IMG/VR virus record: IMGVR_UViG_3300031539_004337
Location: 1 to 20,675 of that record
Source of the DNA: a virus
DNA length: 20,675 nucleotides
Direction: 5' to 3' (one strand)
A model generated the notes under the pieces. The model was given only the letters and a program-made list of their open reading frames with translations. It was not told the DNA's origin and ran no database searches. Within the stretch, counting starts at the first letter, position 1. Every line of letters starts with the position of its first letter. The position numbers and the translations under genes were made by a program. Shown here piece after piece: positions 4,032 through 6,773 of the stretch.

Positions 4032-4594
4032 CAGTCACACCTCCCGCCCACGGTGAAGCGCCGCATGTCAGCACGCGCCCACAGCCATCCACCCATGCCG
4101 TCTCGGCCCCTGTCGTCCGGCCTGTGTTTGCCTCCTGGCCACGTCGGGCGGTGCTCTCCGATGTCCGTAAGCCTGTCAAGGCTGGAGCAGAGCGTCTGCG
4201 CGGCACCCGTCGTCAAGCGTGACTCGCGCGCTGGGTCGACCGGACCACACTCCTCGTGCACGACAATCCAGACGGGTTTGCCGGTGATGCCCTGGACCGC
4301 CGCGTATTCGTCGATGAGTGCCATGTCGATCCCGTGCTCCCAGCGCTGCAGGATCCGGTACCAACCCGGCTCAGACTTGCCCTTGATCTCCACCCAGCAG
4401 ACGCGCTTGCCCATGCAGAGCACGTCGGGCATCACCTTTTGGCCGCAAGCAGCAAGCAGCACCGGGGCCGCAGTCACGACGCCACCAGCGGCGAAGGTCG
4501 GAATCACAGCATGTCCACCAGCCACCAGGCGCTCGACAATGCGGCGCTCGACCATCTGCCCATACGCAAGGCCGTTGGCGAAGTCTCGCTTCAT
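4031..4594 (-). CDS. PD-(D/E)XK nuclease, VRR-NUC/resolvase-like
   Basis: 187 residues from the ATG at 4594, which forms an ATGA overlap with the methyltransferase stop. The frame remains open upstream, but that part is the antisense-like shadow of the methyltransferase. The nuclease core is visible as MPDVLCMGKRVCWVEIKGK: D57, then E69-x-K71, the classical PD-(D/E)XK arrangement. It is followed by a helix containing RWEHGIDMALIDEYAAVQ and the strand GKPVWIVVHEE. VRR-NUC-type phage nucleases of similar size act on branched DNA or as general endonucleases. Placement between a methyltransferase and the initiator suggests a role in replication or DNA processing. Exact substrate unknown. The C-terminal 50 residues are basic and Trp-rich. 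Confidence 0.75.
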   Translation of the reverse strand: MKRDFANGLAYGQMVERRIVERLVAGGHAVIPTFAAGGVVTAAPVLLAACGQKVMPDVLCMGKRVCWVEIKGKSEPGWYRILQRWEHGIDMALIDEYAAVQGITGKPVWIVVHEECGPVDPARESRLTTGAAQTLCSSLDRLTDIGEHRPTWPGGKHRPDDRGRDGMGGWLWARADMRRFTVGGRCD

Positions 4595-5754
4595 ACGGTG
4601 ACCCCCATGTCTGGGCTCACGATGGCGCCAAGATGCTGGCAGTGCTTCCTGAAGGCCTCGACGTTGCTCCCGAGGTACACCAGCACGTTTCCATGGGTGG
4701 GCGCGGCCTTCTCGACGTCGGGCGCGTAGAAGCGAATCCGGCTGTAGCAGAAGCAGATCGCATGGCCCCAGAAGGGGTGAAACCAGGACCGATCGGTGAC
4801 GGCGTTGACGAGCAGAATGGCCTCGGCGACGTTTCCGGCTCCGTACTCGTCGAGCAGCTTGGCGCTCCATCGGCCTTGGTTGCTCTGGCCTTCATCCCGG
4901 CCGTACGGAGGATTGAGCCACACTCGGCCGTGCCACGGCTGCGAGAGGCCATCATCCTCGATGGTGTAGTAGCTGCCGGCCATCACGACCTCGTTGGCGA
5001 GCTCGCAGGACGCCGGGTCGAGATCGAAGCCACCCAGCACCTGGCGGGCAGCGTCGACGATGTGATCCGGCGTGTACCACTCATTGGAGGCCGACGATTG
5101 CAGCGCGGCAGGCGTGCCGCCGCGCGGCCTATCCTCCCCCGGCTGCCCCAACTGCTCGCCCTTCTTCTCGCAGGCCTCGTCGTTGCGCTCATCCCAACTG
5201 TCGCCGTCGTCATCGGGCTCGGGCTCGGGCTCGGGCTGCTCCTTCTGCCGTGCCTTGCCGATGTTGGAGGTGTCCATGGTCGAGACGGTGCCGTGCTTGG
5301 TGGTGTAGGTGCGCTCACTGGGCACCGTGCCCAGTGAGTCTCTCACCTGGTCAACAAAGCGGCGGCTGACGCAAGCCCGCCGACCGATCTCCCTGTTGCT
5401 CCACCGCGCCCACTCCTCATCCCCGAGAAGCACCATCACCGCCCGTCGCTTGTCCTCGTTGGTGCGCCTGAGCCCGTGGGCGGAGTTGGCGCCCACGGCG
5501 AAGAGCACGGCGTCTCTGCGCGTGCCCTGGCGCACGTCCACGTTGACCACTCCGATCTGCGCCTGCTCGGCAGCGGCGACGCGGTGGAAGCCGTCGGCCA
5601 GCCAGTACTCCGCCCCGTCGTGGAAGGCCGTGACGGGCGGGAAGGCGGAGCCGGCCAGCATGGCCTCGGTGTACTCTGCGATCACCACCTGATCCATGCA
5701 GGCGCGCGGCTGCGTCCCGCCGTCACGACGGATGTCGTCGGTCGCAAGCTCCAT
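4591..5754 (-). CDS. ParB-like N-terminal domain fused to phage Dam-type N6-adenine methyltransferase
   Basis: 387 residues from the ATG at 5754, two bases after the regulator stop; an in-frame TTG at 5760 is a less likely start. Residues 1-90 carry ParB/sulfiredoxin-like motifs (GGTQPRACMD, LADGFHRVAAAEQ), and 96-145 look like a helix-turn-helix (NREIGRRACVSRRFVDQVRDS). A repetitive acidic linker follows (PEPEPEPDDD, about 173-185). The C-terminal domain matches phage DNA N6-adenine methyltransferases: NEWYTPDHIVDA (224-235), DLDPAS (244-249) and catalytic NPPY (281-284). It would methylate adenine in DNA. The ParB-like part may position it or give it DNA-binding regulatory ability. A 25-bp palindrome lies within the coding sequence just after the HTH region. 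Confidence 0.92.
   Translation of the reverse strand: MELATDDIRRDGGTQPRACMDQVVIAEYTEAMLAGSAFPPVTAFHDGAEYWLADGFHRVAAAEQAQIGVVNVDVRQGTRRDAVLFAVGANSAHGLRRTNEDKRRAVMVLLGDEEWARWSNREIGRRACVSRRFVDQVRDSLGTVPSERTYTTKHGTVSTMDTSNIGKARQKEQPEPEPEPDDDGDSWDERNDEACEKKGEQLGQPGEDRPRGGTPAALQSSASNEWYTPDHIVDAARQVLGGFDLDPASCELANEVVMAGSYYTIEDDGLSQPWHGRVWLNPPYGRDEGQSNQGRWSAKLLDEYGAGNVAEAILLVNAVTDRSWFHPFWGHAICFCYSRIRFYAPDVEKAAPTHGNVLVYLGSNVEAFRKHCQHLGAIVSPDMGVTV
5215..5238 (-). repeat. GGGCTC hexamer repeat in the ParB-Dam linker
   Basis: Three GGGCTC hexamers followed by GGGCTG on the plus strand encode the Pro-Glu repeats of the acidic linker between the ParB-like and methyltransferase domains. Copy number is probably variable. 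Confidence 0.88.
5314..5338. repeat. 25-bp perfect palindrome inside the ParB-Dam gene
   Basis: Arms CTCACTGGGCAC (5314-5325) and GTGCCCAGTGAG (5327-5338) are perfect reverse complements around a single central C. It lies in codons for RDSLGTVPSER, just after the HTH-like region of the ParB part. Candidate protein-binding site such as a parS-like element or operator. Confidence 0.92.
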
Positions 5755-5756
5755 CG

Positions 5757-6035
5757 TCAAAACCCCGGCGGCGGCTCAAGCGTGAAGGGCGACGCGAGCA
5801 GATCATCGACGGTGCAGAGCAGCACCTCCGCGATGGCCGCGAGAGTGATGACGCTCGGCAGGCTTGGCCCCGTCTCCCATCTGCTGATCTGCGTGTCGAA
5901 GACGTTGCTTCCGATGACATCTGAAGTCCGCTCCGCCAAAAGTGCCTGCGACATGCGCAGCTGCCCTCGACGGATCCGGATGTTGCGCCCAAGCGCAGCC
6001 CGCACGTCCGTCGCCGTTTGTGTTGTGGCTTCCAT
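5757..6035 (-). CDS. XRE/Cro-CI-type helix-turn-helix regulator (92 aa)
   Basis: The HTH is seen in GRNIRIRRGQLRMSQALLAERT, then NVFDTQISRWETGPSLPSVITLAAIAEVL, the classical XRE layout including the ISRWE recognition-helix signature. There is no protease or dimerisation tail, so it is closer to a short Cro/CI-like regulator than a full lambda CI. The ATG at 6035 is preferred over 6044 because the candidate divergent promoter would start transcription about one base before it, and AGGA lies 8 bases upstream. It is the first gene of the replication operon and sits beside a large inverted repeat, so autoregulation and control of the rightward operon are likely. That is inference. Confidence 0.87.
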   Translation of the reverse strand: MEATTQTATDVRAALGRNIRIRRGQLRMSQALLAERTSDVIGSNVFDTQISRWETGPSLPSVITLAAIAEVLLCTVDDLLASPFTLEPPPGF

Positions 6036-6042
6036 GGGACGC

Positions 6043-6072
6043 ATCCTGCCCGATGCAGACGGGGCGTGTCAA
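6043..6072 (-). promoter_or_regulatory. candidate leftward promoter for the regulator/replication operon
   Basis: A perfect TTGACA -35 (6072-6067 on the minus strand) lies within the left arm of the inverted repeat. With an 18-base spacer a weak -10, CAGGAT (6048-6043), follows, matching the consensus at 3 of 6 positions. Predicted transcription start is about 6036, giving an almost leaderless mRNA for an ATG at 6035. Confidence 0.45.
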
Positions 6073-6101
6073 CGCTTTCGTCAGGAAATTGTTGACACGC
6101 C
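6063..6101. promoter_or_regulatory. 39-bp inverted repeat, probable operator between divergent operons
   Basis: Arms GGCGTGTCAAC (6063-6073) and GTTGACACGCC (6091-6101) are perfect reverse complements, 11 bp each. Inside them, TTTC (6076-6079) and GAAA (6085-6088) continue the symmetry around a 5-base centre, GTCAG. Each arm contains a TTGACA -35 box facing outward. A dimeric HTH protein bound here would block both promoters. The adjacent XRE protein is the natural candidate. Confidence 0.72.
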
Positions 6102-6120
6102 AATCGCCCCCTGCCAACAT
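6092..6120 (+). promoter_or_regulatory. candidate rightward early promoter
   Basis: Perfect TTGACA -35 (6092-6097) in the right arm of the inverted repeat, a 17-base spacer, and a weak -10 CAACAT (6115-6120; 3 of 6). A start near 6127 would give a short leader with the ribosome-binding site at about 6134-6140 before the ATG at 6146. The -10 match is poor, so an activator or a different host sigma factor preference is possible. Confidence 0.5.
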
Positions 6121-6145
6121 GCCAGCACACCCACGGAGGAGCGAC

Positions 6146-6433
6146 ATGGGCGACAACGAGATCCCAATCATCCTCTGCTGCGGGGCAAACGGCCGCGCGG
6201 TGGTCTTCGGCTACGTAGACGAGTTGCCCGTCAATGGCGAGCCGGTCACCATGTACCGTGCCCGCATGGTGATCTACTGGGCCGGGGCTCGCGGCCTCTT
6301 CGGTGTCGCTGCCGACGGCCCCGAGACCGGCAGCCGGCTGTCGCCGGTCGTGAAGATGGTCACGGAGACCGTCTGGCAGGAGTGGATGGATGTCACCGCT
6401 GAGGCTGCGGAGAGGATCAATGCCTGGGAGTAG
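6146..6433 (+). CDS. phage protein resembling DUF6948 (95 aa)
   Basis: First gene of the rightward operon. GGAGGA lies 5 bases before the ATG at 6146, which is preferred over upstream in-frame starts because those would lie within the operator region. The product has a beta-rich core with ARMVIYWAGARGLFGVAADGP, the Trp/Gly signature I associate from memory with DUF6948 phage proteins, then a predicted helix ending in ITAEAAERINAWE-like sequence. Those proteins often have Gly-Tyr/Asp repeat tails or repeat-encoding neighbours. Here the repeats belong to the next, overlapping gene. Biochemical function is unknown. Confidence 0.72.
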   Translation: MGDNEIPIILCCGANGRAVVFGYVDELPVNGEPVTMYRARMVIYWAGARGLFGVAADGPETGSRLSPVVKMVTETVWQEWMDVTAEAAERINAWE

Positions 6434-6773
6434 CGGCTACGGCTACGGCGACGGCTTCGGCTCCGGCTTCGGCTACGGCGACGGCTTCGGCTCCGGCTTC
6501 GGCTACGGCGACGGCTTCGGCGACGGCTACGGCTACGGCGACGGCTTCGGCGACGGCTTCGGCTACGGCGACGGAGAAGCCACGACCACGGCGGGCAAAT
6601 ATGTCGTCGCGATTCACCGACCATACGGCGTGATATCAGCCGGGTGCCAAGCAGGCACGCTCTCGTGGTGGCGTGAGCGCTGGGAGGAGATCGCGCGAGA
6701 CGAGGGCGTCTCGATGGACGAGGCGCGGACAGCTTTGCAGGCGGTCGAGGCCGCCATGGGAGGAGCGACATGA
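6420..6773 (+). CDS. Gly-X dipeptide repeat protein (117 aa)
   Basis: The ATG at 6420 has AGAGG 4 bases upstream and overlaps the previous gene by 14 bases. After five residues the protein consists of 23 Gly-X dipeptides (X = Tyr, Asp, Phe or Ser) to about residue 51. A folded C-terminal domain follows: GKYVVAIHRPYGVISAGC, then helices SWWRERWEEIARDEG and MDEARTALQAVEAAM. The repeat could be a flexible aromatic linker or a self-associating segment; this is inference. The C-terminal part has no family I recognise. Codon use in the repeat is entirely GGC alternating with NNC. Confidence 0.7.
   Translation: MPGSSGYGYGDGFGSGFGYGDGFGSGFGYGDGFGDGYGYGDGFGDGFGYGDGEATTTAGKYVVAIHRPYGVISAGCQAGTLSWWRERWEEIARDEGVSMDEARTALQAVEAAMGGAT
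6435..6572 (+). repeat. GGC-NNC tandem repeat encoding Gly-Tyr/Asp/Phe/Ser
   Basis: A 138-base tract of 23 hexamers of form GGC-NNC with a higher-order 30-base period beginning at 6441. Units 1 and 2 (6441-6470, 6471-6500) are identical. Units 3 and 4 differ only at codon positions 1 or 2, swapping TCC for GAC and TTC for TAC. It should be prone to slippage and recombinational length change. Confidence 0.95.

Follow-up and report, generated by a model that had tools for sequence, protein, structure and literature searches.

Results

The locus and the encoded protein

The DNA analyzed in this study is a viral stretch of 20,675 bases, hereafter called the window. On its minus strand lies a gene whose product combines a ParB-fold domain, a helix-turn-helix (HTH), a linker, a wing and a Dam-type adenine methyltransferase, and inside this gene there is a perfect palindrome of 25 bp (12-1-12), CTCACTGGGCACCGTGCCCAGTGAG, which takes in the last base of codon 141 and codons 142-149 (SLGTVPSE) (Table 1). 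The initial annotation had described such a palindrome in a gene with a ParB-like domain, an HTH and a methyltransferase, and the description was confirmed for the DNA as read and for the protein by phrog_1033, Foldseek and PF05869.

The N-terminal part of the protein matched phrog_1033, a ParB-like partition protein, and profile searches led to ParB 7o0n (E 1.6e-5) and to ParB/Spo0J/Srx. Foldseek returned Noc, ParB and KorB with a best E of 1.5e-7, and KorB 8qa9 had the highest TMq (0.56) among the matches listed. By these three lines (Foldseek, profile and phrog_1033), the protein has the ParB-CTPase fold of the ParB of ParABS systems, and it also shows the ParB-like N-domain followed by an HTH that is typical of StrR-like proteins. 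C-terminal parts differ within the family, and the Dam domain, one of several, was present in 7 of the 88 members scanned. Defence-system models gave matches only to orphan-methyltransferase and type II methyltransferase. Among the neighbouring genes in the window are those for a DnaB-type helicase, a PAPS reductase domain protein and an HTH protein.

AlphaFold2 modelling of residues 1-172 (mean pLDDT 78.9) predicted a central HTH with helices at 122-129 and 133-143, followed by a beta-hairpin (149-153/159-163) with KHG in its turn; the linker was of low confidence (pLDDT 61 for residues 141-150). In this model, the palindrome codons (141-149) lie between the recognition helix and the hairpin, overlapping the end of the former and the start of the latter.

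Table 1. Features of the window, and places of a repeat shared by related elements of the Planctomycetes bacterium syqfu genome.
Feature	Position	Strand	Basis
Gene for a 389-aa protein: ParB-fold domain, HTH, linker, wing, Dam-type adenine methyltransferase	4591..5760	-	profile matches, AlphaFold2
ParB-fold (ParB-CTPase/Srx-like) N-terminal domain, about residues 1-112	5425..5760	-	phrog_1033, ParB/Spo0J/Srx, Foldseek
Predicted recognition helix, residues 133-143, tracks inner half-site	5332..5364	-	covariation, AlphaFold2
Proposed binding site of the encoded protein, CTCACTGGGCAC-C-GTGCCCAGTGAG	5314..5338	.	sequence, conservation of position and symmetry in relatives
Predicted beta-hairpin wing, residues 149-163, KHG turn, tracks outer half-site	5272..5316	-	covariation, AlphaFold2
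Dam-type DNA N-6-adenine-methyltransferase domain, residues 222-353	4702..5097	-	PF05869, E 3.9e-13
Shared 10-3-10 inverted repeat TGCTCAGCGAAAGTCGCTGAGCA	L271 1460; L272 1676; L273 3547; L276 3521; L277 1749		

Two other repeats were observed in the window. An inverted repeat of 17 nt (88%) with GTGTCAA/TTGACAC arms at 6063-6101 lies between a divergent Xre-like HTH gene (5757-6044, minus strand) and plus-strand genes, and is likely the operator of the Xre-like repressor. A tandem repeat at about 6430-6600, in a plus-strand ORF (6390-6773), encodes GYGDGFGSGF-type residues.

The palindrome in the window and in related genes

The palindrome was the sole perfect inverted repeat in the window at arms of at least 12 and spacers of up to 20. 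First-order Markov simulations gave an expectation of 0.075 such places per window (spacers of up to 10; 3 hits in 40 simulations), or by simple scaling about 0.004 per gene of this length. Therefore, the palindrome by itself, considered apart from its relatives, is mildly improbable and thus suggestive, and it is not conclusive. A search of the genome for further copies, which had been proposed earlier, yielded none at up to three mismatches, either in the window record or in a second record of this virus, which is 30,023 bases long and identical over the 7,167 bases compared, so a regulon is not visible in this virus. An exact scan of viral contigs found the palindrome only in that second record, by which a fixed sequence common to the relatives was rejected.

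The relatives comprised 163 matched places from viral contigs, bacterial and archaeal genomes and one phage record; together with the window these made 164 genes, of which 153 distinct ParB+HTH genes were left after identical DNA was removed. A linker palindrome was counted at 9 or more of 11 pairs, and synonymous codons shuffled within each gene served as the null. At this threshold, 121 of the 153 genes had a linker palindrome against 9.35 expected, and all 11 pairs were present in 40 genes against 0.05 expected. Of the 121, 115 have their centre at residue 145 or 146 in the numbering of the window protein. Moreover, the longest perfect inverted repeat in the first 200 codons had arms of at least 10 in 72 of the 153 genes, against 1.0 expected from the same shuffles. 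It is because of this comparison that the window palindrome can be regarded as more than chance. A product of chance or of codon constraint could draw on the simulated expectation for the palindrome alone; it was rejected by the synonymous-codon shuffles, with palindromes recurring at the same position, and has a practically negligible probability.

The other 32 genes fell below the threshold; in several of them the palindrome is interrupted, with outer arms still good, and in some it is absent. One gene (L024), which owed its score to a GC-rich repeat, was excluded by name from the covariation set, and the 120 sites that were left included 97 distinct sequences. The conservation beyond the need of the protein sequence, which had been put forward as a check, was found for position and symmetry, with letters that differ from gene to gene. 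Relatives with the same residues and a broken palindrome, which would have spoken against the idea, were not encountered in that form: the residues change, as do the codons, and the symmetry stays. A fresh scan added 31 genes outside the first set, 24 with a palindrome at the same threshold and 7 below it. In the distant StrR-like phage genes L228 and L229, a palindrome near the HTH was not found.

The site as DNA or as RNA

Within the half-sites, the CT at positions 8 and 7 (counted from the centre) hardly ever changes, and the bases on either side of it vary. The arms use all three reading frames (64, 38 and 18 of 120), and therefore the encoded residues are not the conserved thing. The initial annotation had also allowed for a hairpin in the mRNA that controls the operon; such a hairpin might likewise pace translation between the domains, and a long stem is indeed possible in the transcript at what is a domain boundary. 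However, the mismatches in the arms (GT 15, AC 29, other 108) show no enrichment of G-T, so the palindrome behaves as a DNA site and not as an RNA hairpin. Furthermore, pairing reaches the innermost two positions, where an RNA loop needs none (complementary in 82/139 and 110/139 in a set with a looser threshold). Neither a G-U-tolerant stem nor an unpaired loop was thus seen, no Rfam match was obtained in window positions 4500-6500, and no terminator-like site was present in 5000-6300. The hairpin is also at odds with two results described below, namely the covariation with the DNA-reading parts of the protein and the free-standing occurrence of the same site in prophages. It was rejected on the mismatch types and the central pairing, and retains only a very slight chance.

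Site letters, recognition helix and wing

Pairwise distances between sites correlated with those between HTHs (0.378; none of 500 permutations as high), compared with 0.010 for the ParB parts. In a prediction test restricted to genes with ParB parts more than 40% apart, the nearest recognition helix predicted 65.5% of the inner bases against a baseline of 35.1%, whereas the nearest ParB part predicted 35.6%. The nearest wing (the sequence after the linker) predicted 85.6% of the outer bases against a baseline of 53.2%, but only 34.0% of the inner ones; the nearest recognition helix predicted 63.8% of the outer bases.

In a first classification, TCA outer bases went with KHG in 63 of 66 genes, (T/C)AT with RxGxTY in 26 of 41 (of the rest, 14 were unclassified and 1 had KHG) and ATA with HxKTGK in 4 of 6, with an overall chi-square p of 4e-35. 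A refined rule, whose wing classes were set after the first classification was known, gave 62 + 39 concordant and 0 discordant genes among the 101 scorable of 120, with 19 unscorable. E133 occurred with inner CG in 26 of 27 genes, as against 5 of 93 genes lacking E133, and DHK with GGG in 7 of 7, as against 1 of 113 other genes. On the tree of the ParB parts, the wing class changes at least 25 times; on its well-supported branches, the few independent contrasts agreed for wing and outer bases (4/4) and for E133 and CG (about 3/3).

The fresh genes obeyed the wing rule in all 18 cases with both classes scorable, three of the concordant genes having a long insert before the KHG wing. E133 was accompanied by CG in 3 of 3 fresh genes, and CG was also present in 4 of 21 others. 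The only fresh DHK gene (L304) has TTGGGAA, which fails the narrower rule of the fresh test and would pass the earlier one. Among ten plasmid loci, four (L225, L231, L233 and L236) have a good palindrome that fits the code by eye, and six lack a good one. The plasmid ParB-like gene of L231 (2138-3264) has an in-frame stop before the HTH, and its palindrome is still perfect (13-0-13). L236 (2901-2923) is a StrR-like relative in a biosynthetic cluster of a Chroococcidiopsis plasmid, with a palindrome in its own gene.

The inner half-site thus follows the helix and the outer half-site follows the wing, and therefore the site lies between its two readers. Together with the predicted structure, this suggests a two-part reader, whose helix would contact the inner half-site and whose wing the outer one. 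The position and symmetry that are kept, and the letters that follow both elements of the protein, give strong support to the proposal that the encoded protein binds the palindrome as a ParB-type site of its own. The target of another factor, such as a recombinase or a host regulator acting for instance in the exchange of C-terminal domains, would fit the variable C-terminal parts and a second copy in L139 that stands just before a Dam-like domain in another gene (sequence reading). Such a factor would hardly produce letters that follow the protein's own helix and wing across unrelated lineages, and the sites offer no one common sequence to a shared recombinase; we give it a small chance.

Copies of the site elsewhere

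Among 16 phage records, the own site occurred once in 15 and twice in one (L086), with about 1,700-3,800 bases unread in four of the records. The second copy of L086 lies just upstream of an HNH-like gene (L195; HNH call by sequence reading). Four Nostoc genomes and one of Amazonocrinis, all about 8-9 Mb in size, each carry 8-10 exact copies of ATCTGGCGN5CGCCAGAT, and the reversed-control sequence had 0 matches in these five cyanobacterial genomes. In each genome, 7-10 of the copies fall in one prophage stretch of 56-67 kb; phage genes in these stretches include one for a baseplate protein (PHROG) in one genome and terminase-, portal- and head-like genes (by sequence reading) in another. The gaps between sites are mostly 6-14 kb, and the largest gap was smaller than under random placement in four of the five prophages (P 0.002-0.010), the fifth being unclear (0.077). 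The 43 sites were divided between simple ORF calls (22) and the spaces between them (21), often shortly after a stop codon.

In the flanks of the 121 sites, a search with up to four mismatches found 11 extra copies against 4.85 expected from shuffled half-sites. Of the eleven, five seem genuine, one each in L134, L143 and L139 and a pair in L156, and five belong to L024, whose 'site' is a GC-rich run. L134 and L143 each have one copy that precedes a small gene, 7-8 nt from its start codon, and the L139 copy (2744) lies directly before the Dam-like domain mentioned above.

One Planctomycetes genome holds many paralogues with their own sites, and also clusters of 2-7 sites with different letters outside ParB-like genes. 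The clusters of differing specificity in Planctomycetes bacterium syqfu (L268 4327-4745; L269 2635-4139; L270 15359-15428; L272 4463-4532) apparently address several paralogues at once, and the parallel private addresses of the paralogues suggest that cross-talk among co-resident elements is selected against. Related elements of the same genome share a further inverted repeat (Table 1). Three tandem site copies with a 66-bp period (L279 9383, 9449, 9515) were observed in the linker of one of the ParB-like paralogues.

Other repeats were noted in phage relatives. The L091 phage has three CTCACTGG(N8)CCAGTGAG sites (L186 11557; L187 3487 and 11834) that do not fit its own ParB-like protein, and a second ParB-like gene that could explain them was not found in this phage. 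The L079 phage has three near-identical inverted repeats with arms of 14-15 bp (AGTTGGCAACCG...CGGTTGCCAACT; L207 3305, 12376, 18084), and the L025 phage has a perfect 25-1-25 palindrome (L215 7788).

Discussion

In this study, the palindrome was identified as the putative DNA site recognised by the product of the gene in which it lies, a ParB-fold/HTH protein, a reading to which we assign a probability of about 0.85. From the position, the symmetry, the DNA-like mismatch pattern, the two-part covariation and the extra copies in some elements that were established here, we infer binding, a dimer geometry, clamp loading and an output as follows. A symmetric dimer would read the palindrome; within each half-site, a recognition helix (residues 133-143) would read the inner 5-6 bp and a wing hairpin beyond the linker, with the KHG turn in the window protein, would read the outer bases, the nearly invariant CT lying between the two. 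The linker codons, flanked in the gene by those for helix and wing, would hold the site, so that specificity and DNA address would stay linked on exchange and could change together. Most likely, the site would nucleate the protein on its own phage DNA, as sites do for ParB, Noc or KorB, although the clamp-loading step itself stands at even odds. The output may be local repression or the marking of the phage's own DNA, and in fusions like the window protein the methyltransferase may be delivered to the site.

Known systems offer partial parallels. In Bacillus subtilis, parS has a near-universal sequence, is one of several chromosomal sites and occurs with ParA. The site of the phage family, by contrast, varies from gene to gene at a fixed codon position and tracks the protein, and ParA was not found in phage records. 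The two are alike in that B. subtilis parS-359 is also palindromic, of ParB type, and located within parB (spo0J), which encodes the protein that binds it (PMC4442127). A ParA-type ATPase (PF13614) was detected in 0 of 24 viral records, which may be fragments, and in 14 of 14 controls, so classical partition is unlikely. ParA-based partition, and with it a partition role in the strict sense, was thus not supported.

KorB with O_B of plasmid RK2 is similar in being a ParB-fold/HTH protein with operators on its own replicon, and KorB was among the Foldseek matches. Several copies of the site, as in KorB, were present in the five cyanobacterial prophages, whereas the window virus has one copy. 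We know of no KorB operators embedded between the codons of helix and wing. KorB acts as a CTP clamp and a repressor, and slides (PMC11790492). StrR-type activators of antibiotic clusters also combine a ParB-like N-domain, an HTH and a palindromic site (PMC10886168, PMC8306873), and the window sequence CTCACTG-N11-CAGTGAG has the same ACTG-N11-CAGT core spacing as the StrR consensus GTTCGActG(N)11CagTcGAAc (PMC8306873). However, the HTH of StrR (residues 189-230) is further from the ParB part than in the window protein (PMC10886168). StrR sites serve StrR's gene cluster, while the window protein has a phage context and a methyltransferase fusion; an antibiotic gene cluster was absent from its neighbours and was seen for one plasmid relative (L236).

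These comparisons bear on the output. Nucleation on the own DNA is favoured because of the single parS-like site per phage, the prophage arrays, the ParB/KorB fold and the sliding of KorB; transcription control is favoured because of the StrR parallel and the copies close to start codons. An account limited to the latter, in which a StrR-like regulator blocks elongation of its own gene at an intragenic operator with neither clamp loading nor spreading, shares recognition of the own site with the explanation preferred here and differs in the output. It draws on StrR as a ParB-fold/HTH regulator with the same core spacing, on the extra copies before start codons (L134, L143) and before the HNH-like gene (L195), and on the relative in a biosynthetic gene cluster with its own palindrome. 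It accounts less well for the many cyanobacterial prophage sites that are found within genes or separate genes of the same direction, mostly at intervals of 6-14 kb and away from evident promoters, and for the intragenic copy being the only one in 15 of the 16 phage records. We consider it possible, at odds clearly below even. Nucleation and transcription control may also both apply, as in KorB. Overall, the palindrome is best read as the protein's own parS- or operator-like site, and probably as one at which a protein of the ParB/KorB type is loaded.

Orphan ParB-CTPase-fold fusions of phages, including methyltransferase fusions, were surveyed by Kaljevic et al. 2025 (PMC12704722), and the window protein, a phage ParB fold fused to a methyltransferase, fits this group. 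Orphan ParB-fold proteins are common in phages, NTP binding was found in only 11 of 28 purified ParB-fold proteins, and in the sections of the survey covered here the fusions are given with no DNA target or role; its main text has no occurrence of 'palindrom' (PMC12704722). In the literature searched, mostly at the level of listings, no description of an embedded, co-changing site in a ParB+HTH family was recognised.

Slightly short of even is the chance that these genes form a widespread class of self-addressed phage and prophage proteins, with the site between helix and wing codons, that serve phage-genome identity rather than partition. If so, one short cassette would suffice for exchanging or diversifying specificity, and elements residing together could keep private addresses. 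With prophage sites about every 6-14 kb, ParB-fold clamps could load along the whole phage genome, where they could mark, silence, condense or methylate phage DNA. Because every gene displays its own proposed target, a large number of protein-site pairs can be collected together; this makes it possible to test the specificity code of ParB-type HTH-wing proteins, and a bioinformatic route opens to the genomic targets of ParB-fold proteins, as in the cyanobacterial prophages. The finding also raises the question of why a protein's address should be kept inside its own coding sequence, and, if the reading is true, it provides a readable protein-DNA code in systems of phage-genome identity.
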